From assembly GCF_015291665.1 (NCBI RefSeq), contig NZ_CP030048.1, positions 2,108,001 to 2,172,000 on the forward strand: 64,000 nucleotides of DNA, written 5' to 3'. A program made the translations under genes and the position numbers. Under the pieces are notes generated by a model that was given only the letters and a program-made list of their open reading frames with translations, made no database searches and was not told the DNA's origin. The stretch is from Bradyrhizobium sp. CCBAU 53338. Lineage in GTDB: Bacteria; Pseudomonadota; Alphaproteobacteria; Rhizobiales; Xanthobacteraceae. The first letter of the stretch is position 1, and each line of letters begins with the position of its first letter. Below are positions 3,073 to 31,083 of the stretch, piece by piece.

Positions 3073-3421
3073 ATGACCGACGAGGCCACGAGCCCGTTGC
3101 GGCGGCGCATGATCGAAGACATGACGATCCGCAAGTTTGCGCCGAAGACCCAACATGACTACGTGCAGAGGGTCAAGAACTTCGCGGTGTTCCTCGGGCG
3201 ATCGCCGGATACGACGAGCTTGGAGGACGTGCGGCGCTATCAACTTCATCTGGCATCGAGCGGCGCCGGTGTAGCGACCATCAACCAGACCGTCTCGACG
3301 CTGCGGTTCTTCTTCAAGGTCACGCTCAAGCGCCACGAGATCGTCGAGCACACCCACGTCATTCACGAGCCGCGCAAGCTGCCGGTGGTGCTGAGCCCAG
3401 AGGAAGTGGCGCGCCTGCTCG
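3073..3421 (+). pseudogene. tyrosine recombinase/integrase, truncated N-terminal fragment
   Basis: The first about 116 codons encode the SAM-like core-binding domain of a tyrosine integrase of the type found with IS91-like elements: SPLRRRMIEDM, then KTQHDYVQRVKNFA, then HEPRKLPVVLSPEEVARLL. The reading frame stays open to 3822, but homology stops at about 3421, where an insertion-sequence end begins on the other strand. The catalytic domain with its Arg, His and Tyr residues is missing, so no recombinase activity is expected. A GGAGCATCCCC site precedes the ATG. Confidence 0.75.
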
Positions 3422-3484
3422 TCTTGCTTGTCATGGCTTCATCCTCTCAGGAGTTGGAGCCTCCGGCAAACCCGGGGCGGTTCA
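3421..3484 (-). mobile_element. terminal fragment of an IS3-type insertion sequence
   Basis: Read on the minus strand, about 64 bases resemble the left end of rhizobial IS3-family elements: a terminal stretch starting TGAACCGCCCCGGGTTTGCC, an AGAGGATG-type ribosome-binding region, and the first codons (M-T-S-K-T) of an orfA transposase. The frame is cut at 3421, where the integrase fragment is joined. Recognition is from memory of such ends. No matching second end was found in the window, so this is a remnant. Confidence 0.5.
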
Positions 3485-3516
3485 AGCATGGCGAGAGATC
3501 TCGAGTCGGATGGACT

Positions 3517-3600
3517 TGCGGCGATCAGGTTGTAGGTCAGCAGGTATTCTCCGCTCGCGAATCGATCGAGCATCGTGTGGCTCAGGGTGTAAAGTCGCAC
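3517..3600 (-). pseudogene. possible remnant of an iron-type ABC substrate-binding protein
   Basis: About 28 codons in one minus-strand frame ([14 protein letters not shown] followed by [12 protein letters not shown]) resemble a segment of periplasmic iron-type solute-binding proteins. There is no start, and the flanks do not continue the family. It lies between the IS end and the lipA remnant, so it is probably debris of the same rearrangement. The match is short and could be chance. Confidence 0.25.
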
Positions 3601-3630
3601 GTCGGCCTGGCCTCGGTTCGGTCGACGTAC

Positions 3631-3850
3631 GTCCCTGTCGGCGCGCTCGCAGCCTCTGAAAATCTTCGCCGGCATGATGCGACGAACGCGTCAACGGCGT
3701 CGTTGAAACCAGCAGGAATCCCTTGGCGTAGGCGACCCTTTCGTACGCCCCGAATTCTTCAGGGGATACAAATTTCATCACGGCGTGATGTTTGCGCGTT
3801 GGCTGCGGATATTGGCCGATAGTCAGGAAGTCGACCTCGGCGCTGCGCAA
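3631..3850 (-). pseudogene. lipA: lipoyl synthase (LipA) C-terminal remnant
   Basis: About 73 codons match the C-terminus of lipoyl synthase: [22 protein letters not shown], then a segment ending [13 protein letters not shown]. Lipoyl synthase is a radical-SAM enzyme that inserts sulfur into octanoyl groups. The N-terminal three quarters, with both iron-sulfur cluster Cys motifs, are absent, and no plausible start lies upstream. It is therefore a dead 3' fragment, probably of a duplicated or transferred copy; a working lipA should exist elsewhere in the genome. Confidence 0.75.
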
Positions 3851-4116: not shown

Positions 4117-4317
4117 CTACCTTAGCTTGAGATCGCGCAAAGCGGTTATAATAGAGCGATATTCATCAATGGCTGACTTTGCGAGCGCATGGAGCTCGTT
4201 GTGAACTAGGCTACTCACTGCCTGCTCTATCGTTTGAAGATCGACCTCTAATCTTTGCAGTGCAGCCGTCAGTTCGCTAAACGAAGGCTGATGGCTGGCT
4301 CCCATCTCGTCGGCCAT
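4117..4317 (-). CDS. small coiled-coil hypothetical protein, likely ECF-sigma target
   Basis: Protein of 66 aa, predicted all-helical with heptad-like spacing (LTAALQRLEVDLQTIEQAV) and no membrane segment or Cys. I do not recognise a family. Reality is supported by a GAGGAG ribosome-binding site 7 bases before the ATG and by a TGATCC-N16-CGTT promoter-like sequence whose -10 end lies 22 bases before the start. It is divergent from the DUF427 gene, which carries the same signature in the other direction. This points to shared control by the ECF sigma factor encoded at 29.2 kb. Confidence 0.6.
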   Translation of the reverse strand: MADEMGASHQPSFSELTAALQRLEVDLQTIEQAVSSLVHNELHALAKSAIDEYRSIITALRDLKLR

Positions 4318-4339: not shown

Positions 4340-4367
4340 TAAACGCCCGAAAGAGCCCCTCGGATCA
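4340..4367 (-). promoter_or_regulatory. ECF11-type promoter signature before the 66-aa gene
   Basis: On the minus strand, TGATCC (4367-4362), 16 bases, then CGTTTA (4345-4340). The spacing and both boxes match those before the ECF sigma gene at 29.9 kb. It points toward the ATG at 4317, with a short leader holding a good ribosome-binding site. Confidence 0.65.
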
Positions 4368-4395: not shown

Positions 4396-4423
4396 TGATC
4401 CAAAATCATAGCGGCATCGTTGT
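4396..4423 (+). promoter_or_regulatory. ECF11-type promoter signature before the DUF427 gene
   Basis: TGATCC (4396-4401), 16 bases, then CGTTGT (4418-4423), 33 bases before the DUF427 start. With the oppositely directed copy at 4340-4367 it forms a divergent promoter pair, laid out as at 30436-30504. Confidence 0.65.
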
Positions 4424-4456: not shown

Positions 4457-4918
4457 ATGGAATCCGTATGGGATTATCCCCGTCCTCCTCGACTAGAGCC
4501 GGTCTCGCAACAGCTCGAAGTCATCTTCAATGGGAAGACTATCGCAATCACCACGCGCGGTTATCGAGTTTTGGAGACGAGCCACCCTCCGGTGTATTAT
4601 TTCCCGCTCGCCGATGTCGAGGTGATAACTCTGGCGAGCGCGGAAGGACGGTCCTGGTGTGAGTTCAAGGGTCTTGCCTTGTACTGGACCGTCGAAGTCG
4701 ATGGCAAAATTGCCGATAAGGCGGCCTGGTGCTATCCCAACCCGACGGAGCCGTACTCAGCCATCTCCGGCTTCTATGCGTTTTACGCATCGAAGATGGA
4801 CCAGTGCAAAGTCGGCGGCGAGCTAGTAAGGGCGCAGCCTGGTGATTTCTACGGCGGTTGGATTACGTCTGACATCGTCGGTCCCTTCAAGGGTATACCC
4901 GGTAGTAGACACTGGTGA
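4457..4918 (+). CDS. DUF427 domain-containing protein
   Basis: Protein of 153 aa spanning a DUF427 domain, a small cytosolic beta-rich fold of unknown biochemical role. Family features visible are the RVLETSHPPVYYFPLADV segment, WCEFKGLALYW, and the end motif AWCYPNPTEPYSAISGFYAF. The length fits a single-domain member. The ATG at 4457 is preceded by a GGAG. It is transcribed away from the 66-aa gene and has its own TGATCC-N16-CGTT promoter-like sequence, so induction in photooxidative or singlet-oxygen stress is inferred. Confidence 0.85.
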   Translation: MESVWDYPRPPRLEPVSQQLEVIFNGKTIAITTRGYRVLETSHPPVYYFPLADVEVITLASAEGRSWCEFKGLALYWTVEVDGKIADKAAWCYPNPTEPYSAISGFYAFYASKMDQCKVGGELVRAQPGDFYGGWITSDIVGPFKGIPGSRHW

Positions 4919-24307: not shown

Positions 24308-24719
24308 AGTTTACAATATGACCCCACGCTCGATATAATTTCGGTGATCGTCCAAAGGTTTCGCCATTGCTTGCCGGGCTCTAACCTTCGACGCCGGGCA
24401 AGGGGTCAATCAGCGCGTAGAATGACACTCCTGGGCCGCAAGACCCGAAAGCCTTTACCTTGAAAGTTGAAAGAGTAGAGGCGAACTCGGCGGTTAAGCC
24501 GCGGGGTCGCCTATCCCTGATGTTTAGCCCACAGCACCGCGAAGGTGCCCGCTTCCAGCAGGTGACCAGACCAGGTTCTTACTGGGCGACAGCAGCCGAA
24601 CTCGCCCTAAAGTCTTCTTAACATAGGTTAGGCCAGTTGCGTCCGGTCAGCGGAACGTCCTTAACGGCCGAGCAATCATTGCATTCTAGCTTTCGCGCAA
24701 AGTGAAAGAAAGTACGACT
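24308..24719. other. non-coding stretch upstream of the EAL gene
   Basis: No gene is supported here. Two copies of GACCCCA lie 18 bases apart at 24300-24330, close to the point where the SRAP homology breaks off, and may mark the edge of a lost mobile element. The last part must hold the promoter of the EAL gene; no copy of the ECF signature is found in it. Confidence 0.45.
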
Positions 24720-25496
24720 ATGAACACGTGCGCGGGTTGCCGTCTCAGCGAGAGCTTGCCTTTCAAATTCAAAATGGCTTTTCAACCGATCGTCGATCTT
24801 TCGGCGGTTGAGGTCTGGGGATACGAAGCGCTCGTTAGGGGCGAAAATGGGGAGTCAGCCCATACCGTCCTCGCACAGGTGAACGACGAGACCCGGTACA
24901 GCTTCGACCAAGCGGCCCGTGTCACGGCAATTGAAGCCGCAGGGCCACTCTTCGCGGGCAGGGACATGCGGCTGTCCATCAACTTCATGCCGAACGCAGT
25001 ATACGAGCCCAAAGCGTGCATCCAAAAGTCGCTTGCCGCCGCGAAGCGCGTGGAATTTCCACATCGTAATCTCATGTTCGAGTTCACCGAGAACGAGCGG
25101 ATGGTGGATCCGGCCCACGTTGCAAGGATCGTGGAAGCATATCGCAAGTTCGGCTTCTGGACGGCACTCGATGATTTCGGGGCAGGATACGCCGGGCTCG
25201 GTCTCTTGGCCCGATTGCAGCCCGATCTGATCAAGATCGACATGGAACTGATCCGCGACATACATGCCAGCCAAGCCAAGCAAACAGTTGTCGCTGGCAT
25301 CGTGAATATCGCGCGCGAGCTTGACGTCCGCGTTCTCGCCGAAGGCATCGAGAACGAAGCCGAACTCGGCGTGTTGAGAGCGGCTGGCATCAATCTGTTT
25401 CAGGGCTATTACTTCGCAAAGCCAGGATTCATGACGTTGCCGCAAGTTGCTTTCATTGCGGAGAAGCCGATTGAAGCAGCTTTGGCAGCACGATGA
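24720..25496 (+). CDS. EAL-domain cyclic-di-GMP phosphodiesterase
   Basis: Protein of 258 aa consisting of an EAL domain with a short N-terminal CxxC segment (CAGC). The signature residues are kept: EAL in WGYEALVRG, acidic FEFTENERMVD, DDFG in ALDDFGAGYAG, a Lys/Asp pair in LIKIDMELIR, EGIEN, and FQGYYFAKP. Hydrolysis of cyclic-di-GMP to pGpG is therefore plausible. It has no sensor of its own and lies 212 bp before a BLUF photoreceptor gene, so the two may form a split version of blue-light controlled phosphodiesterases such as BlrP1. The ATG at 24720 follows a GAAAG site. Confidence 0.88.
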   Translation: MNTCAGCRLSESLPFKFKMAFQPIVDLSAVEVWGYEALVRGENGESAHTVLAQVNDETRYSFDQAARVTAIEAAGPLFAGRDMRLSINFMPNAVYEPKACIQKSLAAAKRVEFPHRNLMFEFTENERMVDPAHVARIVEAYRKFGFWTALDDFGAGYAGLGLLARLQPDLIKIDMELIRDIHASQAKQTVVAGIVNIARELDVRVLAEGIENEAELGVLRAAGINLFQGYYFAKPGFMTLPQVAFIAEKPIEAALAAR

Positions 25497-25708
25497 CGAA
25501 TCAGCTCATTAGCTGCCCCGCCATTCAATCTCGTCGGCTGTTCGTTCGATATTGAACTAGGCTCATCCGTCCAAGGCGGGTGGCTCGGCTCGATACTCTC
25601 CCTTCAGAGCAGCGTATCGGCAGAGTGAATACGGCATTATCGACCAGCCCGTTGCTCTCGAGTGCGACTCGCAGTCAGCCAGACGTTCTAAGAGGTGAAC
25701 GAGGTACC

Positions 25709-26128
25709 ATGCTGTTTCGGTTGGTCTACCACAGTCGCAACTTGCTACGTCGGAAGGCCGTAGCCGCTGGCAGCGGGCTGATGAGCATTGCGAAGGCCGC
25801 AGAACAAAACAATCTTCAATTAGGGATATCCGGCGCCCTTCTATTCGACAAGGACACTTTTGCGCAAGTGCTCGAAGGAGACAGAACAAAGGTCACGCAA
25901 CTTTTCATCAGGATATGCAGCGATAGCCGACATACCGACATTAGTATCGTCGAGGCAAAGTCGGTCACCGACCGCAGGTTCGCCGATTGGGCTATGGCGC
26001 TTATTGCGAATCCTGCTGCGTCGCCTGTCGGACCGAACTACATTTCCGGCGATGCGGTGGTCGAGATGATGTTCGAGCAGATTCAGAATTCGGATGCTCC
26101 GCTGAGGGTTGCTGTTCCTGTCTGGTGA
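25709..26128 (+). CDS. BLUF-domain blue-light photoreceptor
   Basis: Protein of 139 aa, a single BLUF (FAD-binding) domain. The photocycle residues are visible: Tyr7 in RLVYHSR, Asn35 in QNNLQLGISG and Gln53 in FAQVLEG, with a Trp in FADWAM near the end. It has about four extra residues between Tyr and Asn compared with AppA. No output domain is present, so it must signal through a partner, most likely the neighbouring EAL protein. The ATG at 25709 has a GAGG nearby; an upstream extension to 25580 lacks support. Confidence 0.88.
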   Translation: MLFRLVYHSRNLLRRKAVAAGSGLMSIAKAAEQNNLQLGISGALLFDKDTFAQVLEGDRTKVTQLFIRICSDSRHTDISIVEAKSVTDRRFADWAMALIANPAASPVGPNYISGDAVVEMMFEQIQNSDAPLRVAVPVW

Positions 26129-26307: not shown

Positions 26308-26915
26308 CTAGGGCTTCAGATGGGCCGACACCATTGCCAGAAATTCTTGGCGCAGGATCGGATCATCCTTGAAGCAGCCGATCATTTTGCTATAGTCGAT
26401 AGATCCACGCCGTGCTTTTGTACGCCGCGTCCGCTGATGCAGTGATGCTCGGCTTTCACGAACACAGCCACGCCTTTCGGCTCGAGTTCGGATTAGATCG
26501 CATTCGCGATCTCGGTCGTAAACCTCTCTTGTATCTGCAGGCGCCTCGAATACCCGTCCACCACCCGCGCGAGTTTGGAAATGCCTACGACGCGCTGCGC
26601 CGGTACGTATCCTACCCATGCGCGCCCGACAATCGGTGCCATATGATGTTCGCAATGGCTACGGAAAGGAATGTTTCTGAGCAGAACCATATCGTCGTAA
26701 CCACCAGTCTCGGCGAATGTCGTTCGAAGATGCTCGGTCGGGTCTTCGAAATAGGTCCGATACGCTTCGACGACCCGCCGTGGCGTGTCTACGAGTCCTT
26801 CTCTTTCGGGATATTCCCCGATCCAGCGTAGAATCACCCTGAATGCCTCCTCGGCATCTTCCCTGGACATGACCTTTCCAGCCGTGGACGGCGAAACGTT
26901 TGAAAAATCTTGCAA
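26308..26915 (-). pseudogene. folE: GTP cyclohydrolase I, broken by a stop and a frameshift
   Basis: GTP cyclohydrolase I starts the folate/pterin pathway. The first 140 codons are intact: [26 protein letters not shown] with the zinc Cys and His residues, and [18 protein letters not shown] then replaces the expected Gln in NAI-Q-SELEPKG (26493-26495). The C-terminal part continues through HHCISGRGVQKHGVDLST, then changes frame to MIGCFKDDPILRQEFLAMV. Missing are the second zinc Cys region and the GTP-contacting end. A TTG start with AGAGG upstream is used. A TGATCC-N16-CGTT promoter signature precedes it. Confidence 0.85.
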
Positions 26916-26934: not shown

Positions 26935-26963
26935 GGAAACGTCGCGTAAGTCGCTGTGGATCA
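26935..26963 (-). promoter_or_regulatory. ECF11-type promoter signature before folE
   Basis: On the minus strand, TGATCC (26963-26958), 16 bases, then CGTTTCC (26941-26935). It lies about 20 bases before the folE start at 26915. The two boxes and their spacing equal those before the ECF sigma gene. Confidence 0.7.
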
Positions 26964-26983
26964 CAGTCTGGAAAATGCGTGAA

Positions 26984-28516
26984 CTAAGGCGGTTCTAATG
27001 CCAGCGCGTCGGCGCGCCGTCTGATCGCCCGGATTTCATCCGGATCCTTCCTATCCAGGTTCGTATATTGATTTCGCATGCGGCCGTTTGAAGAAAACCG
27101 CTGGCGGTGCTTCGCAAGAAAACTCCAGTAGAGGGTGGTGAAGGGACAGGCGTCCTCTCCGATCGATTTCTTTGGATCGAAACGGCAACCTTTGCAGTGA
27201 TTGCTCATCCGATTGATGTAGGCGCCGGACGCCGCGTACGGCTTGGTTGCAATGACGCCGCCGTCACCATATTGGCTCATACCGAGCGTGTTCGGTAGCG
27301 ACACCCAGTCGATCGCGTCCCAGAACATCGACATGTGCCAACGGTGGACCTCGTAGGGAGCTACACCGATCAGCATTGCGAATAGCCCTAGTACCATAAG
27401 CCTCTCGATGTGGTGGGCGTATGCATGGTCGATGGTGTGCGTGATGGCATCGGCGAGGCACCGCATGTCGGTCTCAGCGGTCCAGTAAAAGCCTGGCATC
27501 CGAAGGTGCGCGTCCAGCGCGTTTTCTTCGGCATAATGCGGCATGCGCTGCCAGTAGATGCCCCGGACGTATTCTCTCCATCCGAGGATCTGACGAACGA
27601 AACCTTCCAAGGCATTCAGGGGGGCCTCTTCGCTCCTCAGTGCGGCTTTGATCACCTCAGTGGGCGAAAGGATATGGAGGTTGAGGGGACCCGACAGTCG
27701 GGAATGATAGAGGAAGGGTTCTCCGTTCTGCATGGCATCCTGGTAGGTGCCGAACAATGGCAACCGTCGGGATACGAAATCCTCCAGGTGTTCGAGCGCT
27801 TGGGCGCGAGACACGGGAAGATCGATATTTTCCAGCCTTCCCGGACTGCTGGCGAAACGTCGTGAAACAAGATCACGCACCTCCGCGCTGATCGGGTCCA
27901 TTTTCGAGGCGCGTTTCGGAGGAATAGTTGGCGCGTCTTTCCCCAGCGGCTTCCTGTTTTGATCGTCGTAGTTCCATGCCGAGCCGACGGGCTTTCCGGC
28001 TTTGTCCATGAGAAGCCCGGTTTTTTTCCTCATGAAGCGGTAGAACGTTTCCAGAATGTGTCGTGGGTGGTCGCGCGTGAACGCCGCGAACTCGTCTCGT
28101 GAGCAGAAGAAATGCCGATCGCTCCTGATCTCGGGCGGTTGCGGGAGGCGTCTCAATTTTTCGGCAACCCGCCAGTCTCCGGGCTCGATCGCAATTGTTC
28201 GTTCCGGCTTGAGCAGTCTTTGCGCTCGGCCGATTTCGGTCTCGAAGCTACCTGAATTTTCGGGATGGTCGATGGCCACGTAGTGCACGCGCCGGCCTCG
28301 CGCGGTCATATCCTGCCGAAAGTGGCGCATCGAAGCAAAGAAGTAGGCGATGCGAAGCTTGTGTTGAGTGATGTAAGCCGCTTCCTCCAGCACCTCCATT
28401 TGGAGGATGACGTCGACTTCAGGGTCGAAGCCGTCGAACGCAGCTGAGTTTCCGTCCAGTTGGTCACCCAAGACGATGACCAGATTTCTTGTCTTCAGCT
28501 GCGTGGGCTCCGGCAT
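26984..28516 (-). CDS. phrB: iron-sulfur bacterial cryptochrome/photolyase (FeS-BCP, PhrB-like)
   Basis: Protein of 510 aa of the FeS-BCP family, which repair (6-4) photoproducts or act as blue-light sensors using FAD and a [4Fe-4S] cluster. The N-terminal domain is seen in LVIVLGDQLDGNSAAFDGFD. The cluster Cys pattern C-x2-C-x12-C is present (HCKGC to EDACPF, near 437-453), with a fourth Cys in DMRCLADAI. FAD-domain motifs include GWREYVRGIYW and MSMFWDAIDWV. It lies 68 bp downstream of chrR on the same strand, so it is likely the third gene of the sigma-factor operon, which fits its repair role after photooxidative stress. Confidence 0.9.
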   Translation of the reverse strand: MPEPTQLKTRNLVIVLGDQLDGNSAAFDGFDPEVDVILQMEVLEEAAYITQHKLRIAYFFASMRHFRQDMTARGRRVHYVAIDHPENSGSFETEIGRAQRLLKPERTIAIEPGDWRVAEKLRRLPQPPEIRSDRHFFCSRDEFAAFTRDHPRHILETFYRFMRKKTGLLMDKAGKPVGSAWNYDDQNRKPLGKDAPTIPPKRASKMDPISAEVRDLVSRRFASSPGRLENIDLPVSRAQALEHLEDFVSRRLPLFGTYQDAMQNGEPFLYHSRLSGPLNLHILSPTEVIKAALRSEEAPLNALEGFVRQILGWREYVRGIYWQRMPHYAEENALDAHLRMPGFYWTAETDMRCLADAITHTIDHAYAHHIERLMVLGLFAMLIGVAPYEVHRWHMSMFWDAIDWVSLPNTLGMSQYGDGGVIATKPYAASGAYINRMSNHCKGCRFDPKKSIGEDACPFTTLYWSFLAKHRQRFSSNGRMRNQYTNLDRKDPDEIRAIRRRADALALEPP

Positions 28517-28584
28517 ACGGATATCCTGAACTTCGTTCCTTCACGACCTCCAGGGCGCTCCCTGAACGATGACGCTCGAGCTCG

Positions 28585-29229
28585 TCAGAGCCTGATGAAT
28601 GGAGAAACAAGGCGACCGATCCATCCGTTGCCCTTCAAGCTGCCGGACATCGCCACGAAGCATAGACAGGGCTCCTCGGTGCCCACGATAGGCTGATGGT
28701 TCACGTCATCATCGCCGTAATCGAAGTCGCCCGGGCCGTAATGGCCGCTCTCATGCGCGAAGCTGCCCTTCAGGACGCAGGTCAATTCTGTTCCCGAATG
28801 CGTGTGACCTAACATCTTGGCACCAGGAGCAGACCACAGCAGAAATGCCCGCGATTGGTCGGAACTAGGCAAAATGAGTGGTTGCATGCTCACTCCAGGC
28901 GCCACCCGACGCTTCTTGCCGAAGCGGCAGTTGCGGAGGACATCCGGAAGATCCGAGGCGGCTGGCGGCATCGATTCCGTCGTGCCAGACATTGAGATGG
29001 GCTTAGCGTCGACTTTATCAAGAACAACCGAAAGCGCGTCGGCTCGCAGGGAGACAGGAGCTGCTTGTTCGATGGCCGAGCCTCCGAGCCGCTCCAGGGC
29101 TCCAACCAATCGACGACAGCTTCGGCATTGCGCGACGTGAACCGCCAGGGCGAGCCGATCAGCCTCTTCAAGCGGGCCAGACACAAAGCCAGCCAGAAGA
29201 TGTTCCGGAGGATGATGTTTGATGGTCAT
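28585..29229 (-). CDS. chrR: ChrR-type zinc anti-sigma factor with cupin domain
   Basis: Protein of 214 aa. The N-terminal anti-sigma domain has zinc ligands His6, His31, Cys35 and Cys38 (HVAQCRSC), the same positions as in Rhodobacter ChrR. The C-terminal cupin has His142, His144, Glu148 and His178 (GHTHSGTE, VNHQP), again one residue off the Rhodobacter numbering. Known ChrR proteins hold their sigma factor inactive until singlet oxygen triggers release. Its ATG overlaps the sigma-factor stop (ATGA), so it is translationally coupled. Confidence 0.92.
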   Translation of the reverse strand: MTIKHHPPEHLLAGFVSGPLEEADRLALAVHVAQCRSCRRLVGALERLGGSAIEQAAPVSLRADALSVVLDKVDAKPISMSGTTESMPPAASDLPDVLRNCRFGKKRRVAPGVSMQPLILPSSDQSRAFLLWSAPGAKMLGHTHSGTELTCVLKGSFAHESGHYGPGDFDYGDDDVNHQPIVGTEEPCLCFVAMSGSLKGNGWIGRLVSPFIRL

Positions 29230-29771
29230 TTCTGTTCGTCCAGTAGCTCTCTCAATCTTTTCATGGCGAGGCGAATGCGCGATTTGACCGTTCCCAATGG
29301 GATGCCCAACGAAGAGGCGATTTCGCCGTGCGGTCTCTCCTCAATAAACGAGAGCCGGACCACCGTGGATTGCTCCTCCGACAGGCGGGCCAACGCTTTT
29401 GCGATGCGCGTAACATCTTCACTCTGGGCCCGTATCGCTTCCGGGGAGGCTACGGTCTCGACCTCGTAGGCTGTTTCCGGCGATTGCAACGCCCGATCAT
29501 GGCGTAGAGCCCGCCGGGCGATATCAATGCGCTGATTGCGCGCGATCGTGAAGATCCAAGCTGCTACACCGGCAGTGGTCGGATCGAACTCTCCCGCCTT
29601 GCGCCAGACAGCAACGAAGGTGGATTGCGCTATATCTTCAGCGGTCTCCGGGTCGCTTCCCGTCTTTATGAGAAAGCCCTTCACGCGCGGAGCGAAATGC
29701 TCGAATAGCCGTGCAAAAGCGTCACGATCTCCATGGCTTGCGACACGCGAAATCAAATCAATCCAGTCCAC
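29226..29771 (-). CDS. rpoE: ECF sigma factor, RpoE/ECF11 type (singlet-oxygen response)
   Basis: Protein of 181 aa with sigma region 2 (FEHFAPRVKGFLIKTGS, AEDIAQSTFVAVWRKA, WIFTIARNQRIDIARR) and region 4 (RLSFIEERPHGEIASSLG, GTVKSRIRLAMKRLREL). Pairing with a ChrR-type anti-sigma places it in the ECF11 group. I chose the GTG at 29771 (AAGG upstream), since residues encoded before it do not belong to the family; the frame stays open to 29939. It has the same TGATCC-N16-CGTT signature upstream as five other sites here, which suggests autoregulation. Confidence 0.9.
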   Translation of the reverse strand: MDWIDLISRVASHGDRDAFARLFEHFAPRVKGFLIKTGSDPETAEDIAQSTFVAVWRKAGEFDPTTAGVAAWIFTIARNQRIDIARRALRHDRALQSPETAYEVETVASPEAIRAQSEDVTRIAKALARLSEEQSTVVRLSFIEERPHGEIASSLGIPLGTVKSRIRLAMKRLRELLDEQK

Positions 29772-29906
29772 CGTTGCCTTCAGCCTTTCACCTTTGAGGC
29801 GATGCCTTATACCTGGGCTAGAGCATGCCCCGAAAGGTTCTTTTGGTTGAAGCCTTGCAGCCCGAGAGATCACGATGGATATGCTTCTTGGAGACGGGAC
29901 ACCAAA

Positions 29907-29935
29907 AGAAACGACCTGACCGTCAGTTTGGATCA
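29907..29935 (-). promoter_or_regulatory. ECF11-type promoter signature before rpoE-chrR (autoregulation)
   Basis: On the minus strand, TGATCC (29935-29930), 16 bases, then CGTTTCT (29913-29907). ECF sigma factors usually drive their own operon, so this copy gives the reference for the others. It lies about 135 bases before the GTG start, so the leader is long. Confidence 0.7.
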
Positions 29936-30006
29936 CCACGAACTAGCGGATTGGTTTGGAATGCGATCGTTAGTTCACCCAGCTGCCGCGATCGTCCTGG
30001 TTGAGC

Positions 30007-30408
30007 TCACACCAAAAACTGTCGAGCTGCGAGATACCCGCAATAAGCGCTACCTGCGCCCAACAACCCGCCCCACGCGATATCGACGATTGACAGAGTC
30101 GTCGTCCAGTTGCGAAGGACCGCCTGATTTGTGAGGTCATAGGTCGCATAGGTGAAAAAGCCAAAAAGCAAACCGAGCCACGCAGCCCTACCGCTGGAAG
30201 CAGCGGCGTGTGCTGGTAAAACGGCAAGCGCGATGAGCCCGAGCGGGTACAGAAGGTAGAAGACGAGAGCCGGCCAAAAGTTCGGCTCGCTCCGCGCTAT
30301 GTCGCCTATCGTCGCGAGATAGAAGCGTTGGCCCATGAGCTTGAGCCAGACCGCATCGACCGCAACGAATGGAATAGCTACGGCCAGATAGAGCGCAACG
30401 TAGGACAT
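30007..30408 (-). CDS. DUF2177 family membrane protein
   Basis: Protein of 133 aa with four predicted membrane helices (VALYLAVAIPFVAVDAVWL, ALVFYLLYPLGLIALAVL, LLFGFFTYATYDLTNQAVL and a C-terminal helix). DUF2177 is a conserved inner-membrane family of unknown function; the FTYATYDLTN segment is its most typical stretch. The ATG at 30408 was chosen; a GTG at 30420 is in frame. It is divergent from the fasciclin gene and each has its own TGATCC-N16-CGTT promoter signature. Confidence 0.85.
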   Translation of the reverse strand: MSYVALYLAVAIPFVAVDAVWLKLMGQRFYLATIGDIARSEPNFWPALVFYLLYPLGLIALAVLPAHAAASSGRAAWLGLLFGFFTYATYDLTNQAVLRNWTTTLSIVDIAWGGLLGAGSAYCGYLAARQFLV

Positions 30409-30435
30409 GCGAACCCGCACAGTTTGATCGGTGTA

Positions 30436-30463
30436 AGAACGTCGGAAGCTTTCGTCCGGATCA
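30436..30463 (-). promoter_or_regulatory. ECF11-type promoter signature before the DUF2177 gene
   Basis: On the minus strand, TGATCC (30463-30458), 16 bases, then CGTTCT (30441-30436), 28 bases before the ATG at 30408. It lies back-to-back with the plus-strand copy at 30477. Confidence 0.7.
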
Positions 30464-30476
30464 CTGGATCGCGCGG

Positions 30477-30504
30477 TGATCCAAAGCGACGTGCACGTCG
30501 TTCC
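30477..30504 (+). promoter_or_regulatory. ECF11-type promoter signature before the fasciclin gene
   Basis: TGATCC (30477-30482), 16 bases, then CGTTCC (30499-30504), 34 bases before the fasciclin ATG. The two -35 boxes of this divergent pair are 13 bases apart. Confidence 0.7.
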
Positions 30505-30537: not shown

Positions 30538-31083
30538 ATGAACTTCAAGCGCATCGCGACTTCGCTCGCCGTGTCGGCCGTGATGGTCAACTTTATCCCG
30601 CTTGCCATCGCCAAGGAGAAGACCGTGATGGTCGGCGGCGCTGCCATGTATCCGACGAAGAACATCGTCGAGAACGCCGTCAAGTCAAAGGACCACACCA
30701 CCTTGGTCGCTGCCGTCAAGGCAGCCGGCCTGGTCGATACGCTGCAGGGACCTGGACCATATACCGTTTTCGCGCCGACCAATGCTGCGTTCGGCAAGCT
30801 TCCAAAGGGAGCCCTCGCGACCCTGGTCAAGCCGGAAAATAAGCAGACGCTGACCAAGATCCTGACGTACCACGTCGTGCCGGGACGCCTGACTGCTGAC
30901 CAATTGATGGACGGTCAAAAGTTGATCACCGTGGAAGGCGAGCCGCTGACAGTCAAAAAATCAGGCGGAAAGGTAATGATCGTAGACGCGAAAGGTGGTG
31001 CTGCGACCGTGACAATTGCCGATGTGCTACAGTCGAATGGCGTCATCCACGTCGTCAACCAGGTGCTGATGCCTTCGAGCTAA
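30538..31083 (+). CDS. exported fasciclin-domain protein
   Basis: Protein of 181 aa with a Sec signal peptide (about 1-25, ending LAIAKE) and one fasciclin (FAS1) domain, about 45-180. Hallmarks are the H1-like GPGPYTVFAPTNAAFGKLP and the YH-containing LTYHVVPGRLT, plus the closing NGVIHVVNQVLMP. FAS1 proteins are extracytoplasmic adhesion or ligand-binding modules. A CGGAGGACGAC site precedes the ATG. The ECF promoter signature before it suggests a cell-envelope role in the photooxidative response. Confidence 0.92.
   Translation: MNFKRIATSLAVSAVMVNFIPLAIAKEKTVMVGGAAMYPTKNIVENAVKSKDHTTLVAAVKAAGLVDTLQGPGPYTVFAPTNAAFGKLPKGALATLVKPENKQTLTKILTYHVVPGRLTADQLMDGQKLITVEGEPLTVKKSGGKVMIVDAKGGAATVTIADVLQSNGVIHVVNQVLMPSS

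Follow-up and report, generated by a model that had tools for sequence, protein, structure and literature searches.

A CGTT variant of the ECF11 promoter signal and a candidate DUF2177 target of a sigma/ChrR system in Bradyrhizobium sp. CCBAU 53338

Which genes would be switched on by the sigma factor of an ECF11/ChrR locus is the question raised by a 64-kb stretch of the Bradyrhizobium sp. CCBAU 53338 genome (contig NZ_CP030048.1, positions 2,108,001 to 2,172,000; 64,000 nucleotides, hereafter the window, with positions counted from its first letter). The locus comprises a gene for an extracytoplasmic function (ECF) sigma factor, a gene for a ChrR-family zinc anti-sigma factor and copies of the two-box signal TGATCC-N16-CGTT, its boxes being read as -35 and -10 elements; two of these copies lie back to back between a DUF2177 gene and a fasciclin gene. 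Here the window, the rest of the genome and related genomes were compared. The sites are very probably ECF11 promoters, read by a sigma factor that a ChrR-type zinc anti-sigma factor holds back, and sigma freed upon loss of ChrR would start its own operon, the DUF2177 gene, the fasciclin gene and further targets in the genome.

The promoter signal and the sigma/ChrR operon

The first-pass annotation had placed four of these sites before the sigma, folE, DUF2177 and fasciclin genes. All four were found in the orientation claimed, their two boxes separated by a spacer of exactly 16 bases (Table 1), and two further sites form a divergent pair at 4342-4367 (-) and 4396-4421 (+). The six copies compare with 0.12 expected in the window, and six were reached in none of 100 shuffles. 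In a scan of spacers from 10 to 22, TGATCC-Nx-CGTT occurred six times at x=16 and at most once at every other x; when CGTT or CGTA was accepted, there was one match each at spacers 10, 11, 12, 19 and 20 and none at the remaining non-16 spacers. The sites are thereby confirmed as real. Between the -35 boxes of the divergent DUF2177 and fasciclin promoters lie 13 bases. The claim that the -10 element consists of CGTT plus two pyrimidines was true of each site named there (TC, TC, CT and CC) but not of 4342 (CGTTTA) and 4396 (CGTTGT); as a general rule, the extension is ruled out by these two together with two of three sites at a second locus (CGTTAT, CGTTGA).

Table 1. Coordinates of the features considered (window positions unless a locus is named)
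Feature	Position	Strand	Basis
Promoter of rpoE(-chrR-DPRP), TGATCC-N16-CGTT(TC)	29910..29935	-	Motif search; motif before 66/77 distinct ECF11 sigma genes
DUF2177 gene promoter, TGATCC-N16-CGTT(CT)	30438..30463	-	Motif search; motif at 28/37 scored chrR-linked DUF2177 genes
Fasciclin gene promoter, TGATCC-N16-CGTT(CC), back to back with DUF2177 promoter	30477..30502	+	Motif search; 3/4 chrR-linked fasciclin genes
Promoter-like site ahead of broken folE copy, TGATCC-N16-CGTT(TC)	26938..26963	-	Motif search
Promoter-like site ahead of 66-codon open reading frame, TGATCC-N16-CGTT(TA)	4342..4367	-	Motif search
Promoter-like site ahead of DUF427 gene, TGATCC-N16-CGTT(GT)	4396..4421	+	Motif search
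ECF11-type sigma factor, conserved part	29226..29798	-	Pfam PF04542, PF08281; PDB 2q1z RpoE E=2e-43
ChrR-family zinc anti-sigma factor	28585..29229	-	TIGR02451 166.6 bits, cut-off 124.5
DPRP, photolyase-related protein	26984..28516	-	PF04244 E=5.6e-64
DUF2177 membrane protein, predicted four-helix bundle	30007..30408	-	PF09945 E=1.1e-39; model pLDDT (predicted local distance difference test) 93.5
Fasciclin-domain protein	30538..31083	+	PF02469 E=3.6e-38; ATG position set from sequence
folE (GTP cyclohydrolase I) remnant	26388..26915	-	In-frame TAA, then frame change
DUF427 (NTP_transf_9) protein	4457..4918	+	Pfam
66-codon open reading frame, directly behind 4342 site, divergent from DUF427 gene	4117..4317	-	Open reading frame
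Second ECF11 sigma	L039:4848-5498, about C1:5224347		TGATCC-N16-CGTT before own operon

The best PDB match of the sigma factor was 2q1z_A, the RpoE of Rhodobacter sphaeroides (E=2e-43), the next best reaching 3.7e-19. The mechanical sigma open reading frame (ORF), 29226-29939 (-), extends across its own promoter, which places the true start further in. This ORF overlaps that of chrR (28585-29229), which directly follows it, by 4 bases. Both ChrR copies of the genome (the second is described below) keep all eight zinc-ligand positions listed in PMC6852236, in the anti-sigma domain and the cupin-like domain, equivalent to H6, H31, C35, C38, H141, H143, E147 and H177 in an alignment to 2z2s_B. 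The gap from chrR to the DPRP gene is 68 bases and DPRP probably belongs to the rpoE-chrR operon. The autoregulated sigma/anti-sigma operon proposed in the first-pass annotation was upheld, an ECF11/ChrR pair being preceded by a promoter of the published ECF11 type. More widely, the motif stood before 66 of the 77 distinct ECF11 sigma genes collected (72/83 with duplicates; 8 chrR loci without a detected sigma were dropped before the 83 rows were formed).

The window signal equals the published ECF11 signal at every fixed position but the last. For the RpoE/ChrR-type sigma PSPTO_1043 of Pseudomonas syringae, the consensus from chromatin immunoprecipitation sequencing (ChIP-seq) is TGATCC-N16-CGTA, with A as the last -10 base where the window has T, and several targets of PSPTO_1043/1042 are confined to P. 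syringae (PMC5507510). Shewanella RpoE2 promoters read TGATCC/CGTATT, two having mapped starts (PMC4336711); they too carry CGTA, unlike the CGTT here, and the photolyase-related SO_4169 of Shewanella oneidensis is a predicted RpoE2/ChrR target comparable to DPRP, while the main text of that paper does not contain the word fasciclin. The system shares with the sigma-E/ChrR system of R. sphaeroides (ECF11) the architecture of sigma and zinc anti-sigma factor, and the R. sphaeroides RpoE regulon table includes a fasciclin gene (RSP_1409) and folE2 (PMC7074977; PMC6852236). In Azospirillum brasilense, fasciclin is reported to be under RpoE-ChrR control and is linked with flocculation and photooxidative stress (as cited in PMC10949492). 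Control of fasciclin by this sigma family is therefore already in print, and as fasciclin, folE2 and photolyase-related targets have all been published for it, the proposed regulon is for the most part of a type already described. The published core of the response also holds a photolyase gene (phrA/phrB); among genes of this type, the analysis covered the photolyase-related DPRP gene of the window. The ECF11/ChrR assignment is strongly supported by these comparisons and mostly known from other bacteria.

By analogy with these homologues, ChrR would be inactivated by singlet oxygen or lipid peroxides, and the freed sigma would transcribe from TGATCC-N16-CGTT at rpoE-chrR-DPRP, DUF2177 and fasciclin; elsewhere in the genome, an intact folE, a second rpoE-chrR pair, a further ECF sigma and a TspO gene would also be started. 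Of the photooxidative stress regulon suggested at first, the ECF11/ChrR type is borne out by the sequence, and the stress link itself would be inherited from the homologues.

DUF2177, fasciclin and a fatty-acid gene neighbourhood

Conservation was scored in 149 genomes of the same family, in 53 of which ChrR was above the cut-off. DUF2177 was found at 75 places in 69 of these genomes and 69 places were scored (6 fragments or weak matches were left out) for TGATCN-N16-CGT[AT] on the same strand within 400 bases upstream, a gene being called chrR-linked when chrR lay within 8 kb. The motif preceded 28 of 37 chrR-linked DUF2177 genes, as against one of 14 elsewhere in chrR-bearing genomes and none of 18 in genomes without chrR above the cut-off. 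The spacer was specific, with 28 chrR-linked genes matching at spacer 16 and none at spacers 8-15 and 17-24, while the 32 other DUF2177 genes gave 0-2 matches at any spacer from 8 to 24. A similar result was obtained with a set of named loci, the best 80 of 558 by DUF2177 profile, where the site was present at 26 of 32 loci with a chrR match and at 2 of 48 without; five of the 32 are common to the family set, and without them the counts were 24/27 vs 2/48. The other DUF2177 gene of the genome itself (C1:3411372) has no site within 400 bases upstream. DUF2177, put forward earlier as a regulon candidate, is thus strongly supported by comparative genomics (28/37 vs 1/32; 26/32 vs 2/48), and looks like a conserved target of ECF11/ChrR and a so far unnamed part of the singlet-oxygen response.

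The DUF2177 model is a confidently predicted four-helix bundle, for which there was no clear match in the PDB; the invariant polar residues lie in the TYATYDLTN...LRNW stretch. In the excerpts searched, no literature relating DUF2177 to a bacterial sigma factor was found; Dufour 2008, reportedly the main ECF11 regulon prediction, or the Caulobacter SigE paper may list it. With Dufour 2008 outside the search, DUF2177 as a putative conserved target, its possible tie to furan fatty acids and the CGTT variant were not found in print. DUF2177 is not mentioned in the examined text on Shewanella RpoE2 (PMC4336711) or in the excerpted account of A. brasilense RpoE-ChrR (PMC10949492). Members of the family are known from heliorhodopsin operons (PMC11109279) and from a chlorovirus (PMC6163359). 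DUF2177-like proteins with 31-37% identity were also seen in phage records (four from Listeria, one from Enterococcus).

For the fasciclin gene, 71 of 74 places were scored (3 left out) over 600 bases upstream. The site was present at three of four genes near chrR (the window included), at none of 22 far from chrR and at none of 45 in genomes without chrR, the zero count at these 67 other genes doubling as a control of the motif; the genome's second fasciclin (C1:342169) also has no site in its 600 upstream bases. The counts support fasciclin as a regulon candidate on a small set.

The genes found beside DUF2177 give a hint of what it may do. Among the 32 named chrR loci (best 80 of 558), tblastn gave matches to DUF1295 at all 32, to a FAD amine oxidase and to DUF1365 at 30 each and to a CFA-type methyltransferase at 27, and at the 48 loci without chrR, which span Planctomycetes, Deltaproteobacteria, Bacilli and others, DUF1295 was near DUF2177 at 21, CFA at 15, DUF1365 at 10 and amine oxidase at 7. 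The furan-forming enzyme UfaO, whose partners are UfaD and UfaM, is a DUF1365 protein (PMC7380195). In a genome of the same genus (G086), a site is present at each of an amine oxidase-DUF1365-CFA operon, DUF2177, the sigma gene and a further sigma-like ORF (the Pfam check covered the first four enzyme and DUF genes). From such neighbourhoods, DUF2177 may act in the inner membrane together with a furan/cyclopropane fatty-acid module.

A parallel is seen in Chlamydomonas, where Table 5 of PMC4067076 lists DUF2177, fasciclin-like FAS2, DUF1365, DUF1295, CFA1 and CFA2 among the SAK1-dependent singlet-oxygen genes, with log2 values in wild type vs sak1 of 3.25 vs 0.08 for DUF2177 and 4.01 vs 0.07 for FAS2. 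The genes are likened here by the annotation of that paper, and in the text available its authors linked only CFA to R. sphaeroides. Genes annotated with the same family names are thus singlet-oxygen-induced in the alga, under the eukaryotic SAK1 and no sigma factor. An ECF11 singlet-oxygen review counts numerous direct targets without known function (PMC6852236), and DUF2177 offers a directly testable one: it is conserved, its fold is confidently predicted, its gene neighbourhood recurs, and an algal gene of the same name is induced by singlet oxygen.

A second sigma/ChrR pair and competing explanations

Across the whole genome (8.28 Mb, 2 contigs), 30 exact TGATCC-N16-CGTT matches were found, as against 5 for a backward control and about 15 expected by chance (scaled from the window estimate of 0.12). 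TGATCC-N16-CGTA accounted for 13 of 67 rows of the genome motif listing, three being identical copies, and none lay inside either ECF11 locus. Judged from open frames without annotation, 11 of the 30 matches appear placed as promoters ahead of a codirectional gene (C1:2100456, 2112342, 2112396, 2134938, 2137910, 2138438, 2138477, 3102796, 5224293, 5225664 and 5226995), several of these also overlapping mechanical ORFs on one or the other strand, while 17 are probably chance matches and two are ambiguous, namely C1:3431093, before a histidine-kinase-like ORF, and C1:6540467, before a ferrochelatase-like ORF and overlapping open frames (both ORFs named by eye). It is only their context that makes the sites strong.

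Three of the 11 promoter-placed sites lie in the locus of a second ECF11 sigma/ChrR pair, 3.1 Mb away, its sigma 66% and its ChrR 58% identical to those of the window; both pairs therefore share one signal. These sites (C1:5224293-5227020) precede the ECF11 sigma gene, another ECF sigma gene and a TspO gene (Pfam), an arrangement that could form a sigma cascade. Because a second pair with the same -35 and -10 elements is present, the targets are not assignable to the window sigma alone, and the earlier statement that all sites are targets of "this" sigma does not hold. Since their signals are identical, an overlap between the target sets of the two paralogous sigmas is likely. It is a somewhat improbable alternative that the sites serve mainly the paralogous sigma, or that both sigmas form one overlapping network in which the window sigma may have a narrower role: the second pair does carry the signal before its own operon, but only 0.5 kb separates the promoter of the window sigma from the sites of DUF2177 and fasciclin, and the site-bearing DUF2177 genes are the chrR-linked ones.

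That a DNA-binding regulator other than a sigma factor recognizes TGATCC/CGTT as a bipartite operator is very improbable; two fixed boxes are generally also a common operator layout, but boxes, spacing and orientation fit the ECF11 promoter obtained from ChIP-seq and start-site mapping (PMC5507510, PMC4336711), and the box pair tracks chrR across genomes. Chance matches or functionless relics are unlikely on the whole to explain some of the single sites (4342, 4396, 26938 and several genome matches). The number of matches expected genome-wide by chance, the broken folE copy at 26388-26915 and the lack of the site at the 30 other DUF427 genes scored speak for them, whereas six sites per 64 kb are far over chance and those at 4342 and 4396 are arranged divergently, near start codons.

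Several observations weigh against promoters of an ECF11/ChrR sigma as the general explanation. The -10 box is CGTT at all six window sites and not the published CGTA, and the window ChrR did not reach the NCBI equivalog NF051881 (cadmium/peroxide/UV-responsive ChrR), with 173.1 bits against a cut-off of 300. The exact motif is missing at 9 of 37 chrR-linked DUF2177 genes, two of the nine having a one-mismatch version, and the relatives are not independent draws, so that kinship makes the Fisher values for DUF2177 near chrR vs 1/32 elsewhere (p=1.8e-10; 3.6e-10 minus the window row) overstate independence. The fasciclin genes scored near chrR number only four, one of them in the window. DUF427 found no support as a conserved target, the site being found at 0 of 30 other DUF427 genes, where the 30 best-scoring loci and the window made up 31 of 111 places and the low-scoring window copy may have its nearest relatives outside the 30. 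TspO would be a weak candidate for a conserved target, with the site at 2 of 6 genes near chrR (own genome and G064) and at 1/14 and 1/16 elsewhere (36 of 99 places scored, the 30 best-scoring and 6 near chrR). Finally, a DUF1365 gene and ORFs resembling the amine-oxidase/DUF1365/CFA operon lie 2 Mb away in the same genome (C1:4134000-4146500; L243), and this operon has no site even when one -35 mismatch is allowed, whereas its G086 counterpart has one. The ECF11 signal thus does not extend here to the furan/cyclopropane fatty-acid genes of the published core. The genome differs from R. sphaeroides in this and in having two paralogous sigma/ChrR pairs.

The CGTT variant and the remaining sites

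The last -10 base varies among ChrR-linked sigmas, and CGTT is taken here as a variant and not as exclusion from ECF11. Among 66 distinct ECF11 systems with a site, 34 had CGTA and 32 CGTT (36 and 36 of 72 with duplicates), and at the 22 Bradyrhizobium-named chrR loci (within the best 80 of 558) the DUF2177 site read CGTT in 20 and CGTA in one (L337) and was absent from one (L323). CGTT was rejected as a rigid consensus, many relatives having CGTA and 6 of 36 CGTT systems (five distinct) having CGTA on the divergent side; CGTA may therefore still be read by the sigma there.

The -10 base covaried with sigma residue 75 (F-D-P-x-75): K or R stood at this residue in 31 of the 34 systems with CGTA, S or T in 29 of the 32 with CGTT. 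The residue is T in the window sigma, with its CGTT promoter, and R in that of R. sphaeroides. With A grouped with S/T, residue 75 tracked the base in 62 of 66 distinct systems (68/72 with duplicates), narrowly the highest of 190 columns, followed by column 102 (61) and columns 12, 105 and 106 (60), the letter grouping being fitted per column. Of the 83 sigma rows, 17 did not enter this count: 6 were duplicates, and no motif was detected at the other 11. When a tree was built from the sequence outside the loop, it showed 5 changes of promoter state, and one independent pair fell on well-supported branches, too small a number for judging residue 75. The loop holding this residue presumably reads the -10 element, and a causal role of residue 75 in the -10 change, confounded by kinship, would be a lead only. 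The CGTA/CGTT split provides a natural series on the joint specificity change of an ECF sigma and its promoters.

A wider proposal, tentative and somewhat short of probable, would join both lines: DUF2177 would be an unrecognized membrane part of an ancient module that protects membranes from photooxidation (UfaM/UfaD/UfaO-type fatty-acid enzymes, DUF1295, DUF2177 and sometimes fasciclin), switched on by ECF11/ChrR in alphaproteobacteria and by SAK1 in a green alga, and the sigma of Bradyrhizobium and some relatives would have moved its -10 reading from CGTA to CGTT, by Lys/Arg to Ser/Thr in the -10-reading loop, together with its promoter set.

The folE gene, named as a target in the first-pass annotation, was only partly sustained, as the site is present before the window folE but the gene is broken, its C-terminal stretch lying in a different frame after an in-frame TAA (the genome search finds one internal TAA), with the ECF11-type site intact. 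The genome also has an intact folE (C1:3103073), and a separate TGATCC-N16-CGTT lies between its likely ATG and a divergent ORF; the longest mechanical folE ORF spans this site. Adjoining the broken copy is a gene with a BLUF blue-light sensor domain (25580-26128), preceded by an EAL-domain gene (24702-25496); an exact motif search of the window found no TGATCC-N16-CGTT site at either. About 7.5 kb left of the window, the CGTT site at C1:2100456 (L244:4457-4482) lies 18 bases before the ATG of a short gene. An ORF with a phage-type integrase N-terminal domain (3073-3822) is present about 0.3 kb from the 66-codon ORF.

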